A stretch of DNA of 64,000 nt from Lysobacter capsici. Lineage in GTDB: Bacteria > Pseudomonadota > Gammaproteobacteria > Xanthomonadales > Xanthomonadaceae. Positions 34,645 to 50,150 of this stretch are shown piece after piece. The notes below the pieces were generated by a model that saw only the letters and a list, made by a program, of their open reading frames with translations, searched no databases and was not told where the DNA came from. Location of the stretch: contig NZ_CP094357.1 of NCBI RefSeq assembly GCF_014779555.2, positions 1 through 64,000 of the forward strand, given 5' to 3'. A program made the translations under genes and the position numbers. Numbering within the stretch: the stretch's first letter is position 1; every line of letters starts with the position of its first letter.

Positions 34645-36444
34645 TCAGGAAAAGGCCGGCCAGAACGGACCGTCAAGCCACAGCCAGCGCGCCATCCAGG
34701 CGCTGACCAAGGCGATCAGCGTGGTCAGGGGCAAGCCGATGCGCAGGAAATCGCCGAAGCGGTATTGACCCGGACCGAGGATGAGCAGGTTGCCGTGATG
34801 CCCGATCGGAGTCAGGAACGCGACCACCGCGCCCAGCGCGGTGCACACCACGAACGGCGTCGGCGGCAGGCCCAGCGACTGCGCCAGCGAGATCGCGATC
34901 GGCCCGAGCAGCACCGTGGTCGCCGCGTCCGACAGGATCTGGGTCAGCAGCGCGGCGGCGGTGAACATCACCAGCAGGATCATCAGCGGCGACCAGCCCG
35001 CGATCACGTGCAGCATGCCCTGCGCCAGCAATTGCGCGGTGCCGGTCTGCTCCATCGCCACGCCCAGCGGGATCACCCCGGCGATCATCACGAAGATGCG
35101 CACGTCGATCTCGCGATAGGCCTGTTCGACATCGACGCAGCGGGTGGCGACCATCGCCACCGCGCCGAGCAGGAACGCCAGCGGCGCCGGCAGCCATTCG
35201 GTCGCGGCGGTGAGCACGGTCAGCGCCAGGATCGCCAGCGCCAGCGGCGCGCGGATGCGCCGGCGCGCTTCGCCGGCGAACGGCACCAGCATCAGGAAGC
35301 CGTGGTGCGCGGCCAGTTCGGTGAAACGCGCCGGCCGGCCCCACAGCACCAGCAGATCGCCCTCGCGCAGGCGCGCGTCGGACAGGCGCGGCGCGACCGC
35401 GCCCTGCTGCCGCCACAGGCCGGCGATCACCGCATGGAAGCGGCGGGCGAAATCCAGTTCGCGCACGCTGCGGCCGATGAACTCCGAACCCGGCGCGACC
35501 ACTGCCTGGACCAGCTGCGGCTCGCCGTCGCCGTCGGCGTGTTCGCCGAAACGCTTGATCGCGTTGAGATCGAGGCCGGCGTCGTCGTGCAGCGAGGCCA
35601 GCGCGTCGGCCGAGGCCTCGACCAGCAGGATGTCGCCGCTGATCAGCGGGCTGCTCGGGCCCAGGTCCTGACGGCGCTGGCCGTCGCGCAGCCAGCCGGT
35701 CATCACGAAGCGGTCGCCGAGCGCCTTCTGCAATTCGGCCAGCGGCCGCGTGCTCCAGCGCGAGCCGTCCACGATCACCAGTTCGGTGCGGTAACGGTCC
35801 AGGCGCAGATAACCGTCGTCGCCGTGCTCGCCGCCGCGCTTGGGCAGGAACCAGCGCGCCGCCAGCATGTACAGCACGCCGATCGCGATCAGGGCCAGGC
35901 CGATCGGGGTGATCGAGAAAATGCCCAGGCCCGGCGAACCGGTGCGTTCGAGCAGGTTGTCGGCGAGCAGGAAGGCCGGCGCACTGACCAGGGTCAGGGT
36001 GGTGCCGAGCGAGGCCGCGAACGACATCGGCATCAGCAGGCGCGAGGCCGACAGCCCGCGCGACTTCGCGAACCGGGTCAGGATCGGCAGCATCATCGCC
36101 GTGACCATGACGTGGTGGGTGAACGAGGACAGCGCCGCGACCGCCGGCATGGTCACCGCGATCGCGCGGCCCTCGCCGTGCCCGGCGGCGCGACCGATCC
36201 ACTGGCCCAGCCGCTCGGTGATGCCGGTCGCGGCCAGCCCGCCGGAAATCACGAACACCGCCGCGACGATGATCGCCGGTTCGCTGGCGAATCCCGACAG
36301 CGCCTGCTTGGAATCGAGCACGCCGGTCAGCACCAGCGCCAGCAGGGTCAGCATCGCCGTGACGTCGACCCGCAGCCGCTCGCTGACGAACAAGTACAGC
36401 GCTGCGCCCAGGATCAGCAGGAAGGCGATTTGCGAAAAGTCCAT
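34645..36444 (-). CDS. SLC13 family permease with two RCK_C (TrkA-C) domains
   Basis: A sodium/proton-coupled anion carrier of the DASS/SLC13 type. From ATG 36444 the product is 599 aa: ~5 N-terminal helices (MDFSQIAFLLILGAALYLFV onward), a cytoplasmic insert of about 200 residues with two TrkA-C-like modules (LVIVDGSRWSTRPLAELQKA; VVAPGSEFIGRSVRELDFAR), then ~7 helices ending in the family's PIGHHGNLLI/GPG signature. An ATG at 36459 adds five residues. Substrate (sulfate, dicarboxylate or other) cannot be told. It is divergent from the PAS kinase. Confidence 0.92.
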   Translation of the reverse strand: MDFSQIAFLLILGAALYLFVSERLRVDVTAMLTLLALVLTGVLDSKQALSGFASEPAIIVAAVFVISGGLAATGITERLGQWIGRAAGHGEGRAIAVTMPAVAALSSFTHHVMVTAMMLPILTRFAKSRGLSASRLLMPMSFAASLGTTLTLVSAPAFLLADNLLERTGSPGLGIFSITPIGLALIAIGVLYMLAARWFLPKRGGEHGDDGYLRLDRYRTELVIVDGSRWSTRPLAELQKALGDRFVMTGWLRDGQRRQDLGPSSPLISGDILLVEASADALASLHDDAGLDLNAIKRFGEHADGDGEPQLVQAVVAPGSEFIGRSVRELDFARRFHAVIAGLWRQQGAVAPRLSDARLREGDLLVLWGRPARFTELAAHHGFLMLVPFAGEARRRIRAPLALAILALTVLTAATEWLPAPLAFLLGAVAMVATRCVDVEQAYREIDVRIFVMIAGVIPLGVAMEQTGTAQLLAQGMLHVIAGWSPLMILLVMFTAAALLTQILSDAATTVLLGPIAISLAQSLGLPPTPFVVCTALGAVVAFLTPIGHHGNLLILGPGQYRFGDFLRIGLPLTTLIALVSAWMARWLWLDGPFWPAFS

Positions 36445-36545
36445 CGCCGCATTGTGCAAGACTTGGCCGTGTCGACGCCGTATGCGCCATCCACCGGGCC
36501 GTCACGACGGGTTTGGGTACACTCCGCGGTCACCCCGCCCGAGCC

Positions 36546-37769
36546 ATGCCGCACTACGCGATGAGCCTGCCGCACGCCCCGAGCAACGCCCCCAAGGCCG
36601 GAGACGACCGTTTCCGCCAGGCGATGACGGCATCGAACATCGGCATGGCGATCGTGTCCATCGACGGGATCTGGCTGGAGGTCAATCCGGCGCTGTGCGC
36701 GATGCTCGGTTACCGCGTCGACGAACTGCGCGGCCACCACTACAGCGAAGTCACCCATCCCGACGATCTGGCGATCAGCCAGCATCTGGTCGCCGCGCTG
36801 GTCAGCGGCGCGCTGGCCTCGGTCGACGAGCACAAGCGCTACGTGCATCGCGACGGCAGCGACGTGTGGGTGCAGCTCAACGTCGCGGTGATGCGCGACG
36901 AAGACGGCACCGCGCAATATTTCATCTCGCACATGCGCGACATCCGCGGCGAACGCGAGGCCGGCATGAAGTTGAGCGCGCGCGCCGAGGAACGCAGCGC
37001 GCAGCTCGACGCCTCGCACCGGCAGCTGCAGTTGTTCGCCGATGCGGTCGCTCACGACCTGCGCGCGCCGCTGCGCTCGATCGAAAGTTTTTCCGCCCTG
37101 CTCAACGAACGCGCGGCCGAGCGCCTCAACGAAACCGACCGCGACTACCTGGCGCGGATCCGCGCCGCGGCCTCGCGCATGACCGGGCTGCTGGCGGCGT
37201 TGACCGAGCTGTCGCACGTGACCCGCACGCAGATGCGGATCGCGCCGGTCGACCTGAGCCTGCTCGCCGACTGGGTCGGCGCCGAGCTGCAGGACGCCGA
37301 CCCGCATCACCGCGCCCAGATCAGCGTCCAGCCCGGCCTGCAGGTCGAGGGAGATGAGCGCCTGCTGAAGCTGATGCTGAACCAATTGATGCACAACGCC
37401 TGGAAATTCACCTGCGAACGAAGTGCCGCCCGGCATGCTGCCGCGCAAGCTTCAGCCCAGCCGGCCGGCGAGCCCGAACCGGTCCGCATCGAGGTCTTCG
37501 GTGAACGGTCCGGCGACCGGTTGGTGCTGTCGATACGCGACCAAGGCACCGGATTTGACATGCGATATGCTCACAAATTGTTCGAACCGTTCCAGCGCCT
37601 GCACGGGCCGGATCAGGGCGGCGGTCACGGCCTCGGGCTGGCGATCGCCTGGCGCGTCGTCGAGCGCCACCGCGGTCAGATGCGCGCCCATTCGCAGCCC
37701 GATGCGGGCAGCACGTTTACCGTAGAACTGCCCGTCGTGTCCGCGGGCGAGGACATCCCGAATGCATAA
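36546..37769 (+). CDS. PAS domain sensor histidine kinase
   Basis: A 407-aa soluble kinase: one PAS domain with a PAC tail (about 22-135; IGMAIVSIDGIWLEVNPALC, RYVHRDGSDVWVQLNVAVMR), HisKA with phosphoacceptor His170 in DAVAHDLRAPLRSIESFSAL, and a HATPase with NQLMHNAWKF (N box), DQGTGFD (G1) and GGGHGLGLAIAWRVV (G2). No membrane helix, so it senses a cytoplasmic signal. It resembles the phytochrome-like kinases that use Rcp1-type partners. The ATG at 36546 is preferred to a TTG at 36513. Its last 8 bp overlap the response-regulator gene. Confidence 0.93.
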   Translation: MPHYAMSLPHAPSNAPKAGDDRFRQAMTASNIGMAIVSIDGIWLEVNPALCAMLGYRVDELRGHHYSEVTHPDDLAISQHLVAALVSGALASVDEHKRYVHRDGSDVWVQLNVAVMRDEDGTAQYFISHMRDIRGEREAGMKLSARAEERSAQLDASHRQLQLFADAVAHDLRAPLRSIESFSALLNERAAERLNETDRDYLARIRAAASRMTGLLAALTELSHVTRTQMRIAPVDLSLLADWVGAELQDADPHHRAQISVQPGLQVEGDERLLKLMLNQLMHNAWKFTCERSAARHAAAQASAQPAGEPEPVRIEVFGERSGDRLVLSIRDQGTGFDMRYAHKLFEPFQRLHGPDQGGGHGLGLAIAWRVVERHRGQMRAHSQPDAGSTFTVELPVVSAGEDIPNA

Positions 37770-38196
37770 GGAAATCCTGCTGGTCGAAGACAACCCCGAC
37801 GATGTCGAGCTGACCCGGCTCGCCTTCGACGAGGCCAAGATCGCCAACAGGCTGGTGGTGATGGGCGACGGCGCCGAGGCGCTGGACTACCTGTTCGCCC
37901 GTGGCCGCTATTCCGATCGCGATCCCAACGATCTGCCGTCGATCGTGCTGCTCGACCTCAACCTGCCCAAGGTCGACGGTCGCGAAGTGCTGCAGGCGAT
38001 CCGCGCGCACGAACCCACCCGCACCCTGCCGGTGGTGGTGCTGACCACCAGCACCGAGCCGTTCGACGTCGAGGCCAGTTATGCGCTCGGGGTCAACAGC
38101 TATATCCAGAAGCCGGTGGATTTCGAGCAGTTCGTGTGGGCGGTGAAGCAGGTCGGGTTGTATTGGCTGGTGTTGAATCATCCGCGCAATCCGTGA
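37762..38196 (+). CDS. Single-domain response regulator (Rcp1-like)
   Basis: A 144-aa CheY-fold receiver without an output domain. Asp cluster EDNPDD (9-14), phosphoacceptor Asp65 in IVLLDLNLPKVDG, Thr in VVLTTSTEP, and Lys in YIQKPVDFEQF. The extended loop between helix 2 and strand 3 (GRYSDRDPNDLPS) is typical of Rcp1-like partners of PAS or phytochrome kinases. It overlaps the kinase gene by 8 bp, so the pair is translationally coupled. Its target is unknown. Confidence 0.95.
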   Translation: MHKEILLVEDNPDDVELTRLAFDEAKIANRLVVMGDGAEALDYLFARGRYSDRDPNDLPSIVLLDLNLPKVDGREVLQAIRAHEPTRTLPVVVLTTSTEPFDVEASYALGVNSYIQKPVDFEQFVWAVKQVGLYWLVLNHPRNP

Positions 38197-38220
38197 GGAC
38201 GGGGCGGGGCGCGGAAGCTT

Positions 38221-38302
38221 TAAGAGCAAAAGCTAAGAACAAAAGCTAAGAACAAAAGCTAAGAACAAAAGCTAAGAACAAAAGCTAAGAACAAAAGCGA
38301 AT
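38221..38302. repeat. 13-bp tandem repeat (AAGAACAAAAGCT)
   Basis: About six copies of AAGAACAAAAGCT, the outer ones slightly changed, directly after the response-regulator gene. It runs into the half-copy of the GGGGGG/CCCCCC element at 38298. Confidence 0.85.
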
Positions 38303-38614
38303 CCCCCCTGGCCCCCCTTTTGCAAAGGGGGGAACCCCTTGCGGCGAAAGCTCGGCGACCGGAGCCTTTTACGATTCCCGATTCCCGATTCCCGATTCCC
38401 GATTCCCGATTCCCGATTCCCGATTCCCGATCGGAATCGCATCGATAAGACGCCTTCAAGCGCGTGAACGAACGCCACCAAGCGCGGCAATGAGCCCACT
38501 TTGAAAAAGGGGGCGGGCGCCCGGCGAAAAACCGTCGCGGCGACAGCACCCTCAGCGCCGGGGGATTTGCTTCACCCCAGCGCGCGCCTCATCCCACGCA
38601 TCCCCCGCGCGCAA
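38298..38614. repeat. Clustered G/C-run element and 7-bp GATTCCC tract
   Basis: A half-copy of the element seen complete at 56958-57086 (AAGCGAATCCCCCCTGGCCC ... GGGGGGAAC, 38295-38334), eight copies of GATTCCC (38373-38429), and a shorter version of the element (GAGCCCACTTTGAAAAAGGG at 38492 paired with GGGGGATTTGCTT at 38560). No gene is seen in this stretch. Confidence 0.75.
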
Positions 38615-39331
38615 TCACCCCGCGTACAACCGCTCGGCGCGCTGAAACAAAATCCAGCTGGTCGCGATGTACTTATCCCCACCCTTGGGCCGATTGCCGC
38701 GATGGGTGTGGGTGAACGCCGCCGGCGCGATCAGCAGGTCGCCCGCGCGCGGCGCGATCTTGCGGCGCTGATAGAGGAATTCGGTTTCGCCTTCCTCGAA
38801 GCCGTCGTTCAAGTAGATCGTCCACAGCACGTGCCGGTGCAGCGTCTCCGCGCTCTGATCGCGCGGGTACAACTCGCAATGCCAGTACGGATAGCCGCCG
38901 CGGTTGGCGGTGTACCGCTGTAGGTTGATCGCGCCGGGACGGAACACGGTCTGCGCGATCGGCGACAAGGCGTTGTCGTCCATCTCGGCCACGCGTTCGG
39001 CGGTGAGCCGGTGACGCTTGCCGTCGGCGCTCGGCGCTTCGAGCATCAGCGGCGCGATCATCGTGTGGGGATAGCGGCGCAGGTACTGCAACAGGCCGCG
39101 GAACACCGCCAGGTTCAAGGCGAGCTCCATGTCCTTCCAGCCTTCGCGGCCGGTGATGGTGAGATCGCGGCTGTCCTTGAGGTCGGGCATCACCCCGCCG
39201 CCGACCCGGCCCGGCTCGCTGTCGCGGCTGGCGTCGAAGCGCTGCACCAGCGTCGCGCATTGCTCGCGCGTCAGCGCCTGTGGATAGACCTCGATGAAAT
39301 CGGCGGCGCTGGAGTCGGTGGTCGATGACAT
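38615..39331 (-). CDS. 2OG-Fe(II) oxygenase family protein
   Basis: A 238-aa double-stranded beta-helix dioxygenase. From ATG 39331 the product begins MSSTTDSSAADFIEVYPQAL; the longer frame adds an unlikely 44 residues. Likely metal motif H-x-E in YPYWHCELYPRD and distal His in APAAFTHTHRGNRP with the 2OG-binding Arg, in the order usual for this superfamily (the common form is H-x-D). Substrate unknown; members hydroxylate proteins or small molecules. It is divergent from the amyloid operon, with the sigma-54 promoter gap between. Confidence 0.85.
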   Translation of the reverse strand: MSSTTDSSAADFIEVYPQALTREQCATLVQRFDASRDSEPGRVGGGVMPDLKDSRDLTITGREGWKDMELALNLAVFRGLLQYLRRYPHTMIAPLMLEAPSADGKRHRLTAERVAEMDDNALSPIAQTVFRPGAINLQRYTANRGGYPYWHCELYPRDQSAETLHRHVLWTIYLNDGFEEGETEFLYQRRKIAPRAGDLLIAPAAFTHTHRGNRPKGGDKYIATSWILFQRAERLYAG

Positions 39332-39585
39332 GGCGTTGATGGCTGGAAGAGGGCGCCCCGGGCCGGGCCCAGGGGAAGGCGGGCATCGTCGCACGCGCGC
39401 CCCGGGTTGCAAAAACGCAACGCCACGGCACGTGAGCGCAAGAACGGTCAACCAAACCGCCAAAGGCCCGACGCAGCAAGCCTGAGCGGTGAACGGTTCA
39501 TCCGTTGACGCTGCGCAGCATGTCCGCGTTCAGCGCCGCGCTGCGTAACCGCGGCGCAACGTTTTATCGCCCAAGTCGCCGAAGT

Positions 39586-39608
39586 GTTTTCGGGATTCGG
39601 CCGAAAAA
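39586..39608. promoter_or_regulatory. Inverted repeat upstream of the sigma-54 promoter
   Basis: GTTTTCGG and CCGAAAAAC flank a 7-base spacer. It could be a regulator site, though it is closer to the promoter than most enhancer-binding sites, or a hairpin. Confidence 0.35.
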
Positions 39609-39633
39609 CCAGAAATTTCAGCCACTTGGAAGC

Positions 39634-39649
39634 TTGGCACGACTCTCGC
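39634..39649 (+). promoter_or_regulatory. Sigma-54 (RpoN) promoter of the amyloid operon
   Basis: TTGGCACGACTCTCGC matches the -24/-12 consensus TTGGCACG-N4-TTGC with one change. The invariant GG (39636-39637) and GC (39648-39649) are separated by exactly 10 bp. It reads toward the operon and ends 72 bp before its first ATG. Confidence 0.75.
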
Positions 39650-39721
39650 GTAGGTCCTCTCGCGCCGCTTCGACTGCCCCCGAAGCGCACGCCCTGAGTC
39701 CTCGCTTCGGAGTACGTCGTC

Positions 39722-40303
39722 ATGTTCGCCATCCCCCGTCGGTTCGACCGCACCGCGCTGCAGCGGGCGATAAGCGCCGCTTTGCCCCGTGCCGTCGCGG
39801 CGCTGTTCGCGCTCGCCGGTCAAGTCCACGCCCAGGACGCCGCGCCGAACGCGAACCCGAGCGAGGACCCGAGCGAGGACCCGAGCGTGGTGATCGCCCG
39901 CACCGTCCACCCGCGCATCGCCTACCGCGCGCTGCCGGCGCAGGACAATCCGGTACGCACCCAGGCCACGACGTTCCCGGCGCAGATCTTCCACGGCACC
40001 CTGGAACGCTCGCTCGCACCGTTGATCGGCGACGCCGAACTCGATCAGCACGGCTCGGCCGGCCTGAGTCCGGCGACCGCCACGCAGGCGTTGACCGGCC
40101 TGCTGGTGCCGGCCGATGCGATGGGCGCGGCCAATCCGAATGCGATGCTCGGCGGTTCGGCTTCGGCGCCGCCGATGGGCCCGACCATGAGCGTCGGCGG
40201 CGCGGTGAAAAGCGCCACCGCCGGGATCGGCGACCTGGTCACGGGCAGCGTCATGCAGGCCCTGGCGCCGCAAGTCGCGCCGACGCAGGGGCCGGGTCGA
40301 TGA
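39722..40303 (+). CDS. Secreted protein, first gene of the Fap-like operon
   Basis: A 193-aa exported protein with a signal peptide ending near ...AGQVHAQDA, a Ser/Asp/Pro repeat (NPSEDPSEDPS), and a mature part with no family I recognise (RTVHPRIAYRALPAQDNPVR, TTFPAQIFHGTLERSLAPLI), then a Gly/Ala/Met-rich C-terminus. CGGAG lies 11 bases before the ATG. It takes the place of fapA, whose product is a small disordered periplasmic chaperone in Pseudomonas, but homology cannot be shown here. Its stop overlaps the next start (ATGA). Confidence 0.8.
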   Translation: MFAIPRRFDRTALQRAISAALPRAVAALFALAGQVHAQDAAPNANPSEDPSEDPSVVIARTVHPRIAYRALPAQDNPVRTQATTFPAQIFHGTLERSLAPLIGDAELDQHGSAGLSPATATQALTGLLVPADAMGAANPNAMLGGSASAPPMGPTMSVGGAVKSATAGIGDLVTGSVMQALAPQVAPTQGPGR

Positions 40304-40980
40304 GCGCGCGGCTGCGTCCACAGCGGCTGACGCCGTTCGGCTTGGCGGCGTGCCTGTTGGCGACCGCGATCTGCAGCGACGCGCGCGCCGCCGAGCCGAC
40401 CGCGCCCGCAGGCAGCGACCGCGCCCGCATCGCCGATGCCGCCCGCGGCCTCGACGGCCGCGCCGCGATCAACCAGACCGCCGGCGCCGGTAACGCGCAA
40501 GCCAATCTCGCCGCGTTCGCGCTCTCGCCCGATGGCCTCGCGCTGGCATCGCTGCATGCCGACCAGCGCATCGGCGAGACCGACATCGATATCGATGCTG
40601 ACGCCGCACACATCGCCTCCGGCCGCGCCGCATCCGCGCGCATCGACGCGCACGCCGTCGCCGACAGTCGCGGCCTGCTGCAGTTGAACCAGAGCGCGGG
40701 CACCGGCAATCGCCAACTCAATGCGTTCGCGCTGAGCAACGGCCGCATCGCGACCGGCATCGTGGTCGCCGGACTCGACGATGCCGCGCTGGCGTCGGTG
40801 GCCGGCGCGACGACCGACGACGCCTACAGCGCGAACGCCGCGCCGAGCCTGCGCGAGGCGGTCATCGCCGACGACGCCTTCCGCGGCGGCCAGGGCGTGC
40901 TGCAACTGAATCAGACGGCGGGGACCGGCAACGCGTCGGTCAACGCCATCGTGCTCCAACTGCCCGGGGGCGTTCCATAG
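40300..40980 (+). CDS. Secreted threefold-repeat protein of the Fap-like operon
   Basis: A 226-aa exported protein (signal peptide cut near SDARA-AEP) with three imperfect repeats at about 53-76, 125-146 and 199-220: INQTAGAGNAQANLAAFALS, LNQSAGTGNRQLNAFALS and LNQTAGTGNASVNAIVLQ. The N-Q-x-A-G-x-G-N-x-x-x-N pattern, separated by ~50-residue linkers, is the same architecture as the two following subunits but with a different consensus, so it is likely a minor fibre component or nucleator. Translationally coupled (4-bp overlap) to the gene before it. Confidence 0.85.
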   Translation: MSARLRPQRLTPFGLAACLLATAICSDARAAEPTAPAGSDRARIADAARGLDGRAAINQTAGAGNAQANLAAFALSPDGLALASLHADQRIGETDIDIDADAAHIASGRAASARIDAHAVADSRGLLQLNQSAGTGNRQLNAFALSNGRIATGIVVAGLDDAALASVAGATTDDAYSANAAPSLREAVIADDAFRGGQGVLQLNQTAGTGNASVNAIVLQLPGGVP

Positions 40981-41031
40981 AAAAAACGGCAGATCGCAAG
41001 GTCCAAACCACCACTACCAGGAGTCCGACCC

Positions 41032-41799
41032 ATGAACGTTCAATTCACTCTGCTGGCCCTCGCCCTGAGTCTGACCATCGCCGCGCCGGCCTACGCCGAA
41101 GGCGACGATGCGCAGATCCACAGCTCGACCCGCATCGGCAACAGCATCGACGTGTCCGGCAAGGTGCATGTGAAAGGCAAGATCCGCGTCGCGTCCGAAT
41201 CGGCGGCGACCGTGGATCAGGATCAGATCACCGACAGCAACGAATCGTGGGGCGACGGCGATCACACTGCGCACCTGGGCGGCAACGCCTTGTCGGATGC
41301 GCAGGGCAACATCGGCGCCAACGTCGCCGCCGGCGTGGGCAACGCGCAGGCCAACGATACGGCCCTGTCGGCGGTCGACGGCGAGAAGGTGTTCGCTTCG
41401 GCGATGACCTTCAACAGCCAGGGCTCGAGCTACAACTACGCGTACTCCTCGCAGCAGGACACCGAATACCGCGCGACCCTCAACGGCGACGCGCTGTCCA
41501 ACGCCAAGGGCAACATCGGCGTCAACGTCGCCGCCGGCGTCGGCAACGCGCAGAGCAATGCGATGGCCGCCTCGGTCAACAGCTCCGGCACGATCGCCAA
41601 GGCCGCCTCCGACAGCGAACAGGATGCGTGGTTGAACGAACTGGCCGCCAATTGCGACCTCGACACCTTCGCCACTCTGTCCGGCAATGCCTTGTCCGGC
41701 GCGCAGGGCAACATCGGCGCGAACGTCGCCGCCGGTGTCGGCAACCTGCAGCACAACGGATTGTCGATCGCCACCGCGTCGTGCGGCAGCTGCCAGTGA
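41032..41799 (+). CDS. FapB/FapC-type functional amyloid subunit 1
   Basis: A 255-aa exported protein. Signal peptide MNVQFTLLALALSLTIAAPA, cut at AYA-EG. Three ~30-residue repeats at 84-113, 152-181 and 218-247, each with the core GNIG(A/V)NVAAGVGN, separated by Ser/Asn/Gln-rich linkers of ~37 residues; the C-terminus is CGSCQ (CxxC at 251-254). Three imperfect repeats with two linkers and a terminal CxxC is exactly the described plan of Pseudomonas FapC/FapB fibre subunits. CAGGAG lies before the ATG. Nearly identical in plan to the next gene. Confidence 0.88.
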   Translation: MNVQFTLLALALSLTIAAPAYAEGDDAQIHSSTRIGNSIDVSGKVHVKGKIRVASESAATVDQDQITDSNESWGDGDHTAHLGGNALSDAQGNIGANVAAGVGNAQANDTALSAVDGEKVFASAMTFNSQGSSYNYAYSSQQDTEYRATLNGDALSNAKGNIGVNVAAGVGNAQSNAMAASVNSSGTIAKAASDSEQDAWLNELAANCDLDTFATLSGNALSGAQGNIGANVAAGVGNLQHNGLSIATASCGSCQ

Positions 41800-41873
41800 T
41801 GCGTGCGCGGCCGCGGCCCGCGCCGCGGCCGCGAACGTCCCGCATTGCATCCGCTTCCCTGAGGAGAACGCAC

Positions 41874-42689
41874 ATGAAACTGCACACCACGTTGCTGGCG
41901 ATCGCGCTGGCCTCGGGCATCGCCCTGCCGGCCCTGGCCGAAGGCGACGATGCCGTCATCGACAGTTCCACTTACGTTGCCAACCAGATCGACGTATCGG
42001 GCCGGGTCAAGGTCCGCGGCAAGATCCGCGTCGCATCCGAATCGGCGGCGACCGTCGATCAGGACCAGACCACCTTGCTCAACAGTTCGCTCGGCGACGG
42101 TGATCACGACGCGCACTTCGGCGGCGATGCGCTGTCGGATGCGCAAGGCAACATCGGCGCCAATGTCGCCGCGGGTGTCGGCAACGCCCAGGCCAACGAC
42201 ACCGCGCTGTCGGCGGTGGACGGCGAAAAAGTGTTCGCCTCGGCGATGGTGTTCGGCAGCCAGGCCAGCCTGGGCAACTACGCCACCACCAACACCGATC
42301 ACACCTATTACGACGCCACCCTCGACGGCAACGCGCTGTCCAACGCCAAGGGCAACATCGGCGTCAACGTCGCCGCCGGCGTCGGCAATGCGCAAGGCAA
42401 CGGCATGGCCGCATCGGTCAACAGCTCCGGCCGCCTGGCCATCGCGACCGCCGACAGCGAACAACTGGCGATCTCGAACCTGCTCGACAGCGACGGCCGT
42501 CGCCTGAGCCTGGACCTGTACGCCTCGCTCGACGGCAACGCGCTGTCCGGCGCGCAGGGCAACATCGGCGTCAACGTCGCCTCCGGCGTCGGCAACCTGC
42601 AACACAACGGCCTGTCGATCGCGACCGCGTCGTGCGGCGCCTGCGCGCCACCGCCGCCGCCGACCTGCGGCAGTGGCTGCGGCGACTGA
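41874..42689 (+). CDS. FapB/FapC-type functional amyloid subunit 2
   Basis: A 271-aa exported paralogue of the preceding gene. Signal peptide cut near ALA-EG. Residues 23-65 and the three repeats (84-113, 152-181, 221-250) are almost the same as in subunit 1, while the two linkers differ strongly. The C-terminus adds a Pro-rich, Cys-rich tail: CGAC (254-257), five prolines, then CGSGC. GAGGAG precedes the ATG. The pair probably arose by tandem duplication; one may be the major fibre and the other the nucleator, as FapC and FapB are. Confidence 0.88.
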   Translation: MKLHTTLLAIALASGIALPALAEGDDAVIDSSTYVANQIDVSGRVKVRGKIRVASESAATVDQDQTTLLNSSLGDGDHDAHFGGDALSDAQGNIGANVAAGVGNAQANDTALSAVDGEKVFASAMVFGSQASLGNYATTNTDHTYYDATLDGNALSNAKGNIGVNVAAGVGNAQGNGMAASVNSSGRLAIATADSEQLAISNLLDSDGRRLSLDLYASLDGNALSGAQGNIGVNVASGVGNLQHNGLSIATASCGACAPPPPPTCGSGCGD

Positions 42690-42778
42690 ATCGCGTTCCA
42701 CCGCAACCACCACGGTGGCCGTGACGCGGCCACCGTAGTTCCCGCTTCGATCGCGCAACGTCCAGGTGCCGTCCCGCC

Positions 42779-43522
42779 ATGACCGTACATCGAGCCTCGC
42801 TGATCGCCGCTGCCATCGCCATCGCGACCCTCGCCGCGCTACACAGCGGCGCCGTTCGCGCGCAGCGCCCGGACGACAGCCGCGCCACGGTCGACCTGAC
42901 CCGCCTGACCGGCAACGGCGGCATGCCGGTGTTCAAGCCGATGCGCACGCTGCGCGATCTGCGTTACCGCGAACTGCTGCGCCAGCGCTACGACTTCAGC
43001 TGCGGCTCGGCGGCATTGGCGAGCCTGCTGCATTACGGCTACGGCCTGGACGTCAGCGAGCCGGAGCTGATCAAGAAGATGATGGTCGGGGTCGATCCCA
43101 AGGAAGTGGTGCGCAACGGTTTCTCGATGCTCGACATGAAACGCTACGTCGAGAGCATCGGCATGCGCGCGCACGGCTTCCGCATCGACGCCGATGTCTT
43201 GTACCGCTTGCAGATGCCGGTGATCGCGCTGCTCGATCTCAAGGGCTACCGCCATTTCGTCGTGGTCAAGGGCGCGGCGGGCGGGCGGGTGTTCGTCGCC
43301 GATCCCGCGCTCGGCCACCGGGTCATGCAGGAAGCCGATTTCGTGCGCGGCTGGAACGGCATCGTGCTGGCCGTGGTCGGCGACCAACCCATGCGCGCCG
43401 ATTCCTATCTGGTCAACAGCCGCAGCTCGCCCGCGCTGCAGCGACGCGTGGACGCGCTCGATCGCGTCACCGCGCCGCCGCGCGTGGTCGAGTTCGGGCT
43501 GGTGATCACCGATCTTTTTTGA
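42779..43522 (+). CDS. fapD: C39 family peptidase, FapD-like
   Basis: A 247-aa exported papain-fold protein. Signal peptide through ...GAVRAQ. The C39 triad is visible: Cys75 in QRYDFSCGSAALAS, His159 in GYRHFVVVKG, Asp175 in VADPALGH, plus the oxyanion Gln69 of RQR. Stand-alone periplasmic C39 proteins with this layout are encoded in fap operons as FapD, where they are needed for fibre export and may process substrate. It directly follows the two fibre genes. Confidence 0.9.
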   Translation: MTVHRASLIAAAIAIATLAALHSGAVRAQRPDDSRATVDLTRLTGNGGMPVFKPMRTLRDLRYRELLRQRYDFSCGSAALASLLHYGYGLDVSEPELIKKMMVGVDPKEVVRNGFSMLDMKRYVESIGMRAHGFRIDADVLYRLQMPVIALLDLKGYRHFVVVKGAAGGRVFVADPALGHRVMQEADFVRGWNGIVLAVVGDQPMRADSYLVNSRSSPALQRRVDALDRVTAPPRVVEFGLVITDLF

Positions 43523-43550
43523 CGTCGTTTCGCACGTTTCGAGGTGTCCG

Positions 43551-44315
43551 ATGAACTGTCCACGACTCCCCCCGACGCTGTTCTCGGCCCTCTTGGCAGC
43601 GGCGGCCGCGTTGCAACCCGCGGCCGCCCTGCCACCTTTGAAAGCTCATGCGGTGACCGCCCATGTCGTCGATGACGCCACCCTGGGCACGATCAGCGGC
43701 AAATACTTCGGCGCGCAGATGCTGGTCGGCCTGCGCGTGGACCTGGTGTCCAGCCTCAACACGCCGCAGCACGGCACCGCCTTCGCCAGCGGCTCGTTGC
43801 TGGTCGAACGTCGCGGCGGCGGTTTCGAGGTTCAGGTCGATGCGCGCAGCGGCGCCGATGCCGGCAACGCGACGGTCGCCGCGGGCGCGGCCGACGCGAA
43901 CGCGAGCGGCGCCGAGTCGGTGCAGGTGCGCGGCATCGGTCAGATCGCGCAGATCGCCGGCGACGACAATCGTTTGGGCAACCTGACCTCGATCGGATTC
44001 GTCGATCGCGTCGATGCCTCCGGCTTCAACGGCCAGTCGCACAGCCAGGCCAGCGCCGGCGCGATGAGCGCGCGGGTGACCTTCCTCGATGGCGGCGCGC
44101 GCATCGCCGTCGACGGCCCCGGCGCATCGCTGCAACAACGCCTGGATCCCGGCGCCAGCGGCGGCATCGCCCAGCTCGGCCGCATCGCCGGCAACGGCGT
44201 GGACGCGAGCAATCGCATGCAGCTGCAGATCGTGACCTCGGCGATCACTCCGGAACTGAGTCGGCAACTCGGCTTGCAGCAGGCGTTGGACAGCCTGCGC
44301 GCAGTGCCGCGCTGA
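43551..44315 (+). CDS. Secreted protein in the FapE position
   Basis: A 254-aa exported protein (signal peptide cut near AAALP). The mature N-terminus has HVVDDATLGTISGKYFGAQM, which resembles the L-D-D-x-x-L-x-x-x-x-G-K-Y type of segment recalled for FapE and also a C39-type leader, a possible link to the peptidase encoded just upstream. Two further segments, GIGQIAQIAGDDNRLGN and GIAQLGRIAGNGVDASN, form a short internal repeat. It lies 28 bp after the C39 gene and 36 bp before the pore gene. Assignment to FapE is by position and loose resemblance. Confidence 0.7.
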   Translation: MNCPRLPPTLFSALLAAAAALQPAAALPPLKAHAVTAHVVDDATLGTISGKYFGAQMLVGLRVDLVSSLNTPQHGTAFASGSLLVERRGGGFEVQVDARSGADAGNATVAAGAADANASGAESVQVRGIGQIAQIAGDDNRLGNLTSIGFVDRVDASGFNGQSHSQASAGAMSARVTFLDGGARIAVDGPGASLQQRLDPGASGGIAQLGRIAGNGVDASNRMQLQIVTSAITPELSRQLGLQQALDSLRAVPR

Positions 44316-44351
44316 TCGTCTTCCCTCCCTCTTGTCACGGACGCCGAGACC

Positions 44352-45677
44352 ATGCGCCCTCTGCTCGCCCCACTGTCCGTCGCCCTCGCGCTCGCCCTGA
44401 GCGCGCCGGCCCACGCCGACGAAGCCGCCACCGATTTCAAGTCGCTGCACCAGCGCATGCTCGACATGAGCCGCGAACTGGCCGCGCAGAAAGCCGAGAT
44501 CCAGCGGCTGCGCGGTCAGGTCGACGAGCTCGAACTGACCCAGCGCGGACGTGGCCTGAGCGGCGCGCCGCCGTCGCCCGCGCAGCAAAATGAGGCGACC
44601 GACAACGCGCGCGATGTGGCCGAACAAGCGCAACGCAAGGCCTCGGCGACCGTCGCGCGCGACGAAGACGACGACGCGCCGGTGCAGGTCGGCCAGACCC
44701 AGCGCGCCGAGGACGCGCAGCGCCGCGAACAGGAAAAAGCCCTGGTCGTGCGCGAACACGCGCCGCTGTTCGAACGCAAGTTCACCCTCGACACCGGTTT
44801 CAGCTACAGCTATTACGACCGCCGGCAACTGGCGTTGAGCGGCTTTCTGGCGCTGGACGCGATCTTCCTGGGCAGCATCAACCTGGACCAGACCAAGGCC
44901 AGCGTCGGCACGTTCGAGCTCAGCGGCCGCTACGGCCTTAGCGACCGGCTCAGCATCGAAGCCAGCCTGCCGTACGTCTACCGCGACTCGCGTTTCGTCA
45001 GCGGCGGCGCCGGCGGCGCGTCCAGCGTGGTCAGCGAAGTGCGCATGCGCTCGCAGGGCATCGGCGATGCCAGCATCGCCGCGTACTACCAATGGGTGAA
45101 GGAATCGCAGCGCTGGCCCGACATCGTCACCAGCCTGCGCGTGCGCGCGCCGACCGGACGCGACCCGTTCGGCCTGAAACTGATCCAGCCCGACGGCGAC
45201 AACAACAACCTCAACATCCCCGAGGATCTGCCGACCGGTTCGGGCGTGTGGGCGGCGACGGTCAACGTCTCCGCGCTGCGCACCTACGATCCGGTGATCC
45301 TGTTCGGCAACATCGGCTACACCTACAACCAACCGACGAATTTCGACGACATCTCGCCGGTGGCCGAGCAGGTTTCGCCCGCGCGGGTGGAACTGGGCAA
45401 CAGCATCCAGCTCAGCGGCGGCCTGGCGATCGCGCTCAACGATCGCTCCGCGGTGAGTTTCGCCGTCGCCACCGCCGTCACCGGCGCCACCCACCTGACC
45501 GCGCCGGGCGGCGAAAAACGGCGCGTGCCCGGCAGCTCCAGCAACTCGACCACCTTCAATATCGGCGCGAGCTACGTGCTGCCCTCGGGCTGGACGCTCA
45601 ACGGCCAACTCGCCGCGGGGCTGACGCCGGATGCGCCTAACTTCGTGTTTTCGATGCGCGGGTCGCGGTCGTTTTGA
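44352..45677 (+). CDS. fapF: FapF-like outer-membrane amyloid export pore
   Basis: A 441-aa outer-membrane protein. Signal peptide cut near PAHA-DE. Residues ~28-62 form a heptad-rich coiled coil (FKSLHQRMLDMSRELAAQKA, EIQRLRGQVDELELT), followed by a charged linker (~65-130) and a C-terminal beta-barrel of alternating polar and hydrophobic strands (FTLDTGFSYSYYDRRQLALS ... FVFSMRGSRSF) ending in Phe. A periplasmic trimeric coiled coil plugging a 12-strand barrel is the known design of FapF. It ends the operon; a GC hairpin without T-run follows (45684-45711). Confidence 0.9.
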   Translation: MRPLLAPLSVALALALSAPAHADEAATDFKSLHQRMLDMSRELAAQKAEIQRLRGQVDELELTQRGRGLSGAPPSPAQQNEATDNARDVAEQAQRKASATVARDEDDDAPVQVGQTQRAEDAQRREQEKALVVREHAPLFERKFTLDTGFSYSYYDRRQLALSGFLALDAIFLGSINLDQTKASVGTFELSGRYGLSDRLSIEASLPYVYRDSRFVSGGAGGASSVVSEVRMRSQGIGDASIAAYYQWVKESQRWPDIVTSLRVRAPTGRDPFGLKLIQPDGDNNNLNIPEDLPTGSGVWAATVNVSALRTYDPVILFGNIGYTYNQPTNFDDISPVAEQVSPARVELGNSIQLSGGLAIALNDRSAVSFAVATAVTGATHLTAPGGEKRRVPGSSSNSTTFNIGASYVLPSGWTLNGQLAAGLTPDAPNFVFSMRGSRSF

Positions 45678-45778
45678 GCGAAGCCGCCCGCATGCGCGCA
45701 AGCGCGGGCGGGTGAGCGGTGGCTAGGAGCAGGCCCGGGTGAAATACACTAGGCACAAGGACAACGTAAGGACGCGAA

Positions 45779-46444
45779 ATGCCGAGCGAAGCAAGAATTG
45801 CGCTGGACAAGAATCTGGAAGACATCAAAAGCCTACTGTCGCTTCATGGCAATGGAAAAGACGCGGTCGATACGAGCGCGGACGGGATCGAGGTGCTCAA
45901 TCGCTCGGCCATCGTGCTCCTGACGTCGTTCTGGGAAGCCTATTGCGAAGATATCGCCGCCGAAGGGCTGCAATGCATCGTGGACAACGCGAAGAACGCC
46001 GATGCCCTGCCGAAGGAAATAAAGAAAGTCATCGCCAAAAAGCTCAAGGAAGATGCCAACGAACTGGCGCTGTGGTCAATCGCCGACAAGAAATGGCGGG
46101 ATGTTCTTGGCAGCTACATGGCGGAGCTTAAAGAGGCCAGAGACCGAAAGCTCAATACGCCAAAGTGGGAACGGATCGATGATCTGTTTCGGTCGGCGGT
46201 GGGACTGTCGGATATTTCCAAAAACTGGAAAGTGGACGGAAAGCTCAGCGTCGAGGATGCGCGCAAGCAACTGAATGCGTATGTCGAGCTTCGCGGTGAG
46301 ATCGCGCATCGGGGAAACACGAAAACGGCCGTTTCGAAAAAACAGGTGACGGACTATCTCAGTCTTGTGAAGACCATCGCGTCAAAGACCGGCGGAGCCG
46401 TCAAGAAACATGTCTATGCTGCCTGCAAGGTGAAGCTTTACTGA
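45779..46444 (+). CDS. HEPN domain protein (RiboL-PSP/MAE_28990-like)
   Basis: A 221-aa, mostly alpha-helical soluble protein. The N-terminal half has VLLTSFWEAYCEDIAAEGLQ (about 46-65), typical of HEPN families with a WExxxED motif, and the C-terminal helix carries Arg172-x4-His177 (ELRGEIAHRG), the RNase-type HEPN motif. The base composition is visibly less GC-rich than its neighbours, suggesting acquisition. HEPN RNases act in toxin-antitoxin and phage-defence systems; no antitoxin is adjacent on the same strand. A role as RNase is inferred from the motif. Confidence 0.85.
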   Translation: MPSEARIALDKNLEDIKSLLSLHGNGKDAVDTSADGIEVLNRSAIVLLTSFWEAYCEDIAAEGLQCIVDNAKNADALPKEIKKVIAKKLKEDANELALWSIADKKWRDVLGSYMAELKEARDRKLNTPKWERIDDLFRSAVGLSDISKNWKVDGKLSVEDARKQLNAYVELRGEIAHRGNTKTAVSKKQVTDYLSLVKTIASKTGGAVKKHVYAACKVKLY

Positions 46445-46572
46445 GAACAAGCGATCGTAAGATCCGCAGCGATCCGGATCTCCGATTATGGTTTGAGGTT
46501 CGACGGGTGTCTGGCGGTCACGCGCTACGCAGCCGCGGCCAAGCCAGCGTTCGACGATCGAGAAGATAACCA

Positions 46573-46613
46573 AAAAGCAACGGGCTCACCGCGAAATCGA
46601 GCCCGTTGCTTTT
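46573..46613. terminator. Bidirectional terminator between the HEPN gene and its convergent neighbour
   Basis: A perfect 15-bp stem AAAAGCAACGGGCTC/GAGCCCGTTGCTTTT with an 11-base loop. It ends in T-runs on both strands and serves both convergent genes. Confidence 0.9.
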
Positions 46614-46646
46614 AGTTGGCTCAGCCTCGGGACGCGAACGGGCCTC

Positions 46647-47315
46647 TCATACTCCGAACCACCGATCCTTGATCTCCTCGCAAGCCGCGCCCAGATCGCC
46701 GAGCCGGCGCTTGTTGGCTTTCGGCGCGCTCAGAATGCTGCGCGTGGCGATATCGACGACGTAGCAACGATCGGGATTGACCGTGCCGGGCGCCGACAGG
46801 TTGTGTTCCAGATGCGCGCGCAGCGCGGTGGCGACGTAGGCGGCGCTGCGGCCGTCCAATGGCTGGGTGCGGGAGAAGTGCAGCTTGACGCAGCCGACGA
46901 CCTCCTGCGTCGCCGGGTCCAGCAGCAGCGCTTCCGGACGCATCACCACTTTTACTCCGGCCAGTTCGAGCCCGTCGCTGGAAAAGGTGTCCACGCGCAC
47001 CGCGGTCAGCGCGCCGAGCTTGATGTCCTCGCAGATATCCAGGAACGCGGTGATCGCATGCGCCGAATGTATGCGGTCCTGGACCGCGAAGTCGCCGCCG
47101 TCGGTGTTCTCGCGCAGCGCTTCGGCCGCGGCCAGCGCGGCCGCGTCGTCGACCATGTTCGAGGCGATGTGCTCGGCGATCACTTCGCGCGCGTCGCGGT
47201 AGCGGGTGGATTTGAACAGCGGCGGGTTCTTCTGGTCCTTGACGATCTGCCGCCGCCGCGTCGGCGTGGCCATCATGTATTCGCCGAGTTGATTGACCGA
47301 AATCCTTGGCTTCAT
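46647..47315 (-). CDS. Protein of unknown function
   Basis: A 222-aa soluble protein starting MKPRISVNQLGEYMMATPTR; GGAG lies 8 bases before the ATG. No signal peptide or membrane helix. The N-terminus is basic (RRRQIVKDQKNPPLFKSTRY); the middle contains IKLGALTAVRVDTFSSDGLE and EVVGCVKLHFSRTQPL, a strand pattern with an E...K that could, weakly, fit a PD-(D/E)XK nuclease core. I do not recognise a named family. It is convergent with the HEPN gene across a shared terminator, and its promoter side abuts the sigma-54 activator gene on the same strand (48-bp gap). Confidence 0.75.
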   Translation of the reverse strand: MKPRISVNQLGEYMMATPTRRRQIVKDQKNPPLFKSTRYRDAREVIAEHIASNMVDDAAALAAAEALRENTDGGDFAVQDRIHSAHAITAFLDICEDIKLGALTAVRVDTFSSDGLELAGVKVVMRPEALLLDPATQEVVGCVKLHFSRTQPLDGRSAAYVATALRAHLEHNLSAPGTVNPDRCYVVDIATRSILSAPKANKRRLGDLGAACEEIKDRWFGV

Positions 47316-47363
47316 CCCTGACTCCCCAGTCTTGGTTAGTCCGGAAATTATGGGTGATCGCCG

Positions 47364-48827
<1,464 letters not shown>

Positions 48828-49094
48828 TGGAGCTTCCCCGCCGGCGCAAATGCGCCAGCACCTGCAAGTCCTTAGGCAAACGCGGGGCGCGGCAAAAGCC
48901 GGTCATCGGCGGCCGGTGCGGCGGGCGCGGCGCGTTTAAGCGACCGCGCCCGGGTCCGGGACGCACCGTACGCGCGCGAACAGCGCGCTTCGTCTTCAGT
49001 CGGCCGGTGGCGGGTCAACCGGTTGGGCGCGCGCGAGACATCGAGGTCCCGCCGGGACGGCCCGATAGCGCGCGCCACGAAAGCGCGATCCGGC

Positions 49095-50150
49095 TCAGCC
49101 CTGCCCGGCGTCGTACTCGTGGTGGTAACGCACCGCGGTTTCGACCTCGCTCTTGCTGCCCAGGAACACCGGCACGCGCATGTGCAGGCCGGTCGGTTCG
49201 ACCTCGAGCATGCGCTGGCGTCCGGTGCTGGCCGCGCCGCCGGCCTGTTCGACCAGGAACGCCATCGGGTTGGCCTCGTACATCAGCCGCAGCTTGCCGC
49301 CCTGGGCCGCGCACTTGGCGTCGAGCGGATAGCTGAAGATGCCGCCGCGGGTCAGGATGCGATGCACGTCGGCGACCATCGAGGCCACCCAGCGCATGTT
49401 GAAGTCCTTGCCGCGCGGACCTTCCTTGCCGGCCAGCAGATCGCCCACGTAGGCCTGCATCGGCGGCTGCCAGTGGCGCTGGTTGGACATGTTGACCGCG
49501 AATTCCTTGGTGTCCTCGGGGATCCGCATGCCGCGCGTGGTCATCACGAAGCTGCCGACTTCGCGGTCCAGGGTGAACGAGTGGGTGCCGTTGCCGATGG
49601 TCAGCACCAGCATCGTGCTCGGGCCGTAGGTGGTGTAGCCGGCGCAGACCTGTTCGCTGCCGGGCTGCAGGAAGTCCTTGTCGGCGGCCTGGGTGACGCC
49701 GTCGGGGCAGCGCAGCACCGAGAAGATCGTGCCGACCGAGATGTTGACGTCGATGTTGCTGGAGCCGTCGAGCGGATCGAACAGCAGCAGGTAGTTGCCG
49801 CGCGGGTAGACGTCGGGGATCGGGTGCGAGGTGTCCATTTCCTCCGAGGCCAGGCCGGCGAGGTGGCCGCCCCAGGCGTTGGCTTCGAGCAGGATCTCGT
49901 TGCTGAGCACGTCGAGCTTCTTCTGCGCCTCGCCCTGGATGTTCATGCTGGCCTGTCCGGGCGTGCCGGCCTCGCCGAGCACGCCGCCCAGCGCGCCTTT
50001 GCCGACCGCGATCGAGATGGTCTTGCAGGCGCGGGCGACCACTTCGATCAGCAGGCGCAGGTCGGGGTTGATGCGCCCGGCGCGCTGTTCTTCGATCAGG
50101 TAACGGGTCAGGGAGATGGGGCTGGTGCTGGGATTGAGAACGGCGGACAT
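49095..50150 (-). CDS. fbp: Class I fructose-1,6-bisphosphatase
   Basis: Hydrolyses fructose 1,6-bisphosphate to fructose 6-phosphate in gluconeogenesis. From ATG 50150 the product is 351 aa, slightly longer than E. coli Fbp. Family motifs: [32 protein letters not shown], the metal-binding [22 protein letters not shown] block, and [20 protein letters not shown] near the C-terminus. The open frame continues upstream through Arg/Pro-rich residues that are not coding. It is not clustered with other carbon genes. Confidence 0.97.

Follow-up and report, generated by a model that had tools for sequence, protein, structure and literature searches.

The 64,000-base window analysed here (bases 1-64000 of the one-contig, 6.24 Mb genome of Lysobacter capsici, NZ_CP094357.1) carries an operon of the functional-amyloid (Fap) type in which fapC, the gene for the major fibre subunit, is present as a tandem pair, and in which the second copy ends in an extended, cysteine-bearing tail. 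Seven open reading frames (ORFs) follow one another on the plus strand at 39722-45677 in the order fapA-B-C1-C2-D-E-F. The identity of FapB, FapC1, FapC2, FapD, FapE and FapF, and the tandem arrangement of FapC, are evident from sequence and fold, and comparison with relatives ties the tail to gene position, namely to the operon's last FapC copy. We take the locus to be a complete but divergent Fap operon of a Lysobacter, fapABC1C2DEF, with a probability of about 0.93 that Fap identity and export mechanism hold jointly. A seven-gene, single-strand operon at this place, forming a complete but divergent Fap system, had been claimed from the sequence alone (hereafter the original prediction), and the ORFs, the Fap profiles, matches to solved FapF and FapC structures and the fold of FapC2 all bear it out. 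Its spacing of 4-91 bp was close: we measured a 4-bp overlap of fapA with fapB and then gaps of 28-89 bp (51, 74, 89, 28 and 36 bp, in order). It described six proteins under a seven-gene title, leaving 39722-40303 undescribed, and it missed the fapC duplication as the unusual point, together with a sigma-54-type promoter site and a candidate activator.

The clearest assignments are those of the peptidase and the pore, for both of which the profile search proposed as a check on the original prediction returned strong matches. FapD (42779-43522, +; 247 residues) matches the FapD model at E = 6.3e-63 and Pfam Peptidase_C39 at 2.1e-22, and in an alignment with the C39 protease 6mpz its Cys75, His159 and Asp175 fall at the catalytic places, as befits the papain-fold C39 cysteine peptidase that had been predicted. 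FapD is 97% identical to its counterpart in Lysobacter sp. Root690, 83 and 86% to those of two L. antibioticus records, 74% to that of L. bugurensis and 68% to that of Luteimonas gilva. FapF (44352-45677, +; 441 residues, FapF model 8e-101) was likewise correctly anticipated as a coiled-coil and outer-membrane-barrel protein: residues 137-436, the barrel, match PDB entry 5o65 at E = 2e-78, while the coiled coil was read by eye, with a weak TolA_bind_tri match (0.0025). FapE (43551-44315, +; 254 residues) is a secreted protein, fibre-associated by analogy, that matches the FapE model at 3e-6 over residues 24-250; the same model matches 18 of 19 aligned relatives (best 1.2e-30). Signal peptides of the operon's proteins were assigned by eye. 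The first gene, a fapA candidate (39722-40303, +; 193 residues) for a periplasmic chaperone by analogy, matches the FapA model weakly (E = 0.068), and two of 19 aligned relatives match it at E <= 0.01 (best 4.9e-6); since published Fap systems are reported to be frequently without fapA (PMC3792158), this is not decisive. None of the seven window proteins passes the NCBIfam equivalog cut-off that sets the naming threshold for its Fap family, and the FapF cut-off is passed in none of 198 genomes of the family.

The third threefold-repeat protein of the operon had been singled out as a new variant. It does have three repeats with a consensus of its own, NQ[ST]AGxGN (never found in 5000 shuffles of the protein), but the model scores, 88 bits against FapB and 36 bits against FapC, identify it as FapB (40300-40980, +; 226 residues, FapB model 5.7e-25), by analogy the minor subunit and nucleator, and not as a new kind of subunit; the published repeat motif is itself reported to differ between FapB and FapC (PMC12392863). 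No relative of FapB was found in PDB, and its predicted structure was uninformative (predicted local distance difference test score, pLDDT, 37).

The locus might alternatively be a pilus-like Fil system, whose C39 peptidase (FilB, NF050078) and barrel (FilC, NF050079) belong to related families. FapD does match FilB and FapF does match FilC, and Lysobacter relatives carry a FapC-less locus with such genes; however, the Fil matches (111 and 43.5 bits) fall far below the Fap matches of the same proteins (212 and 338 bits), and the operon includes Fap-type fibre subunits, making this reading very improbable. The FapC-less locus itself (L051:2001-6303, -; also L052; genomes G015 and G173 of the same genus) encodes a C39 peptidase scoring 134 bits with FapD and 122 with FilB, together with a barrel protein resembling FapF (136 bits, against 45 for FilC). 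L051 additionally encodes secreted proteins that lack any NCBIfam match, one of them Gly/Asn-rich. The locus is possibly a second export system in those Lysobacter that have no FapC.

Returning to the Fap operon, its two fibre subunits, FapC1 (41032-41799, +; 255 residues, FapC model 5.1e-28) and FapC2 (41874-42689, +; 271 residues), each contain three copies of GN[IVL]GxN[VIL]A[AS]GxGNxQ, a motif that did not occur once in 5000 shuffles of either protein, which agrees with the original prediction of two secreted, threefold-repeat proteins with a terminal CxxC. Its proposed check on repeat structure also came out in its favour, in that FapC2 shows the three-layer cross-beta repeat fold of FapC, with 32% identity over 150 aligned residues of 9u4u. 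FapC1 ends in CGSCQ and has one further cysteine, Cys208, in linker 2. FapC2 ends in CGACAPPPPPTCGSGCGD, a tail (42633-42686, +) consisting of CxxC, a run of prolines and a second Cys pair; all four cysteines of the protein lie within it. At the DNA level, the repeats of the two genes are 86-92% identical, their linkers 56-66%.

Relatives were surveyed at three levels. Of 20 Lysobacter genomes in the genus sample, 14 have FapC. In the class sample, FapC was detected in 16 of 369 genomes at E <= 1e-8, a cut-off at which distant FapC may be missed, and more than one match only in the window's genome and in G402 (four matches in two frames). The G402 locus (L101) has a FapC-like ORF with six motif copies in about 630 residues beside a shorter ORF; owing to masked stretches and many repeats it was excluded from tail counts and trees. 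In the family sample, 49 genomes gave FapF matches belonging to the higher-scoring group, and the fapC region was readable in 47. Copy counts exclude L037 and L081, which are cut by contig ends, and genomes represented a second time (as L088-L092) were counted once. Of the 47 readable genomes, 25 form another clade in which each genome has a single long FapC whose tail lacks cysteine. The remaining 22, the window's clade, have one (n=7), two (n=11), three (n=3) or four (n=1) copies of fapC. In a tree of FapD and FapF (a quick tree with long-branch warnings) some single-copy loci branch basally (L033, L050) and others amid multi-copy loci (L045, L038, L048, L040, L049), which points to repeated gain of copies, repeated loss, or a combination of the two.

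The diverged, Cys-rich tail of the second subunit, which the original prediction had pointed to, recurs in these relatives. Combining the family loci with eight further Lysobacter loci gave 23 multi-copy operons with 28 inner and 23 last copies; the loci are related, and the counts are not independent trials. Among inner copies, 27 of 28 end within two residues of CxxC and one has no cysteine, whereas 21 of the 23 last copies have CxxC followed by an extension that holds two or more additional cysteines. Operons with the extension represent four genus codes (14, 4, 2 and 1 operons). None of the seven single copies has it; three of these have CxxC and four lack cysteine. The two exceptional last copies are that of L047, with CxxC alone, and that of L043, with no cysteine. 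The L047 gene (copy C3, 5026-5922, -) has a short CxxC end; its linker 1 carries an insert and its sequence a run of N, and on account of these two features it may be misassembled.

A second FapC might do nothing beyond raising the amount of major subunit, the tail of FapC2 being a neutral remnant where the gene adjoins fapD. Such a dosage effect is conceivable, at somewhat less than even odds: repeats are 88-92% identical across the 14 Lysobacter operons whichever copies are compared, and the range of one to four copies, with single-copy loci amid multi-copy ones, indicates that additional copies are dispensable. Against it stand the presence of exactly two copies in every one of the 14 Lysobacter genomes with FapC, linkers 1 and 2, which are 80-85% identical to their namesakes in other operons but only 61-70% to those of the neighbouring copy, and the tail, absent from all 28 inner copies. 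We judge the chances about even that FapC1 and FapC2 co-assemble into the same fibre.

The tail could also mark FapC2 as a specialised end piece, acting as a cap, anchor or cross-linker in place of the cysteine contact proposed between FapC and FapE in Pseudomonas. In P. aeruginosa and P. fluorescens, FapC is reported to end in CxxC and FapE to have a C-terminal cysteine, and contact between them has been speculated upon (PMC3684753); here, no cysteine occurs in the last 200 residues of FapE in any of 19 aligned proteins (three of them from the other clade). Elsewhere in the window operon, FapA and FapF have no cysteine, FapD has only Cys75, and those of FapB (positions 18 and 25) and FapE (position 3) are confined to leaders. 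We therefore infer that any disulfide partner of the FapC tail would be another FapC or a protein encoded outside the operon. The confinement of the second Cys pair to last copies favours an end piece, but the disulfides are putative, L043 is a multi-copy operon with no cysteine in either copy, the last copy of L047 (the gene with the run of N) lacks the tail, and four of the seven single-copy FapC have no cysteine at all; we consider this role rather doubtful. Similarly tentative is a combined proposal for Lysobacter and its relatives, in which the Fap fibre would be a two-component copolymer of subunits with similar cores and diverged linkers, the Cys pair of the last copy serving to cross-link, cap or anchor it. 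If true, the major subunits would divide the work between them, an arrangement which we have not found described for Fap.

In genera other than Lysobacter, exchange between FapC copies has occurred: the two copies in L079 have 494 identical bases in common, and in L039 (copies C2-C4, 3503-5995, +) copy 3 matches copy 4 exactly in the signal peptide and the N region but copy 2 from linker 1 onward, although this copy, coming from a draft assembly, may be a product of unequal crossing-over or a misassembly. Within Lysobacter, residues 117-253 of FapC2 form one clade, separate from FapC1, with support of 98.6. Three changes of copy label are needed for residues 1-82 and five for segment R1, and 300 trials with labels swapped within genomes never gave fewer than these numbers; the approximately unbiased (AU) test does not reject monophyly of Lysobacter FapC2 in either segment (p = 0.09 and 0.24, respectively). 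Low resolution of short segments may thus explain the label changes, and gene conversion inside Lysobacter is weakly supported. Across genera, origin of all last copies from one duplication with no later exchange was rejected (p-AU 9e-8 for residues 1-82, 8e-10 for 83-116 and 5e-59 for 117-253; L043 was excluded from these tests), but residues 1-22 did allow a single clade of last copies (p = 0.23). Because rejection applies to the mature parts and not to the signal peptide, the results are compatible both with an ancient single duplication whose copies were homogenised afterwards and with repeated, independent duplication.

Upstream of the operon, a candidate sigma-54 (-24/-12) promoter, TGGCACG-N4-TCGC, with the GG-N10-GC spacing, lies at 39635-39650 (+), 87 bp before fapA. 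Five sites in the window, this one included, score at least 10, so that a single site is not significant and only recurrence in relatives counts. A GG-N10-GC site is present in all 28 loci that include the 900-base stretch 1.0-1.9 kb upstream of fapC1, with TGGCACG exact in 27 and at one mismatch in the other, and in 24 of these loci this stretch outscores every other of equal length. Downstream, and convergent with the operon, is a gene for a sigma-54 activator with a VpsR domain (47364-48827, -; 487 residues; Pfam Sigma54_activat 1e-67, VpsR 4.1e-19, HTH_8), the candidate fap regulator. In all 31 genomes of the window's clade the distance between this gene and fapF is at most about 6 kb. The link is not exclusive, however: three Lysobacter genomes with no FapC match (G015, G173 and G190) keep a regulator 73-88% identical to it. 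In Vibrio, VpsR responds to cyclic di-GMP (c-di-GMP).

Two genes separate fapF from the regulator. The first (45779-46444, +) encodes a HEPN_RiboL-PSP protein (1.5e-21) and, having no match in loci L033-L100, looks like a strain-specific insertion; the second (46647-47315, -) encodes a 222-residue protein that has no Pfam match and is shared by several Lysobacter loci but missing from others. Upstream of fap, the stretch 37762-39463 encodes a response regulator (+) and, on the opposite strand, a 2OG-Fe(II) oxygenase (-); in many related loci a homologue of at least one of the two likewise lies upstream. An Rfam scan of 36000-50000 gave no match.

By analogy with Pseudomonas, the Fap proteins would cross the inner membrane via Sec, FapA would hold the subunits soluble in the periplasm, and processing of partner proteins by FapD would allow export to start, the FapF barrel passing FapB and both FapC chains. 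FapB would then nucleate the fibre, FapC1 and FapC2 would be added as three-layer cross-beta monomers, and FapE would associate with the product. To this we would add that transcription may start at the sigma-54 promoter under the VpsR-type, probably c-di-GMP-responsive activator, and that FapC1 and FapC2 might co-assemble through their similar repeats while linkers and the extra cysteines of FapC2 give them different surfaces.

Fap operons are already known, also in Xanthomonadales, where those of Stenotrophomonas and Rhodanobacter were reported in 2013 (PMC3792158); judged by sequence, the new part is likely the tandem FapC and the tail of its last copy. Fap has been called an evolutionarily 'fixed' amyloid, nearly always with three FapB/FapC repeats and a conserved gene order (PMC12822426), and a GTDB survey reports exactly two FapB/C genes in 94.5% of 1172 clusters, the remainder having other numbers (PMC12392863). 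Neither tandem FapC nor a tail restricted to the last copy was described in the main text of the open-access journal articles searched, one search covering the best 10 of 551 hits; supplementary data of the GTDB surveys may list clusters with tandem FapC. The clade offers a natural experiment on the tolerance of the cross-beta core and on mixed-subunit amyloid, and bears on the role of the C-terminal cysteines of FapC, reported in Pseudomonas only as speculation (PMC3684753).

Compared with Pseudomonas fapABCDEF, the Lysobacter operon shares the gene order A-B-C-D-E-F, three repeats in both FapB and FapC, the C39 peptidase FapD, the FapF barrel, the CxxC end of FapC (as in P. aeruginosa and P. 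fluorescens), a -24/-12-type site upstream and a convergent sigma-54 activator downstream. In P. fluorescens PF07, fap is reported to have a -24/-12 promoter activated by BrfA, a sigma-54-dependent activator of Fis type whose gene lies next to fapF on its downstream side, in reverse orientation (PMC9207406), and which is reported to be a c-di-GMP sensor (PMC13101488). By these descriptions the window regulator resembles BrfA, and differs in being separated from fapF by two genes and in having close homologues in genomes without FapC; among relatives, 0-4 extra genes lie between fapF and the end of the regulator, those of the window being the HEPN gene and the gene for the 222-residue protein. 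The three-layer repeat fold is common to the Lysobacter subunit and to the FapC fibre structures 9u4u (Pseudomonas sp. UK4) and 9nqd. The operon departs from Pseudomonas in a FapE that lacks a C-terminal cysteine, in proteins that fall under the NCBIfam cut-offs and, above all, in its two tandem fapC genes and the second Cys pair in the tail of the last.
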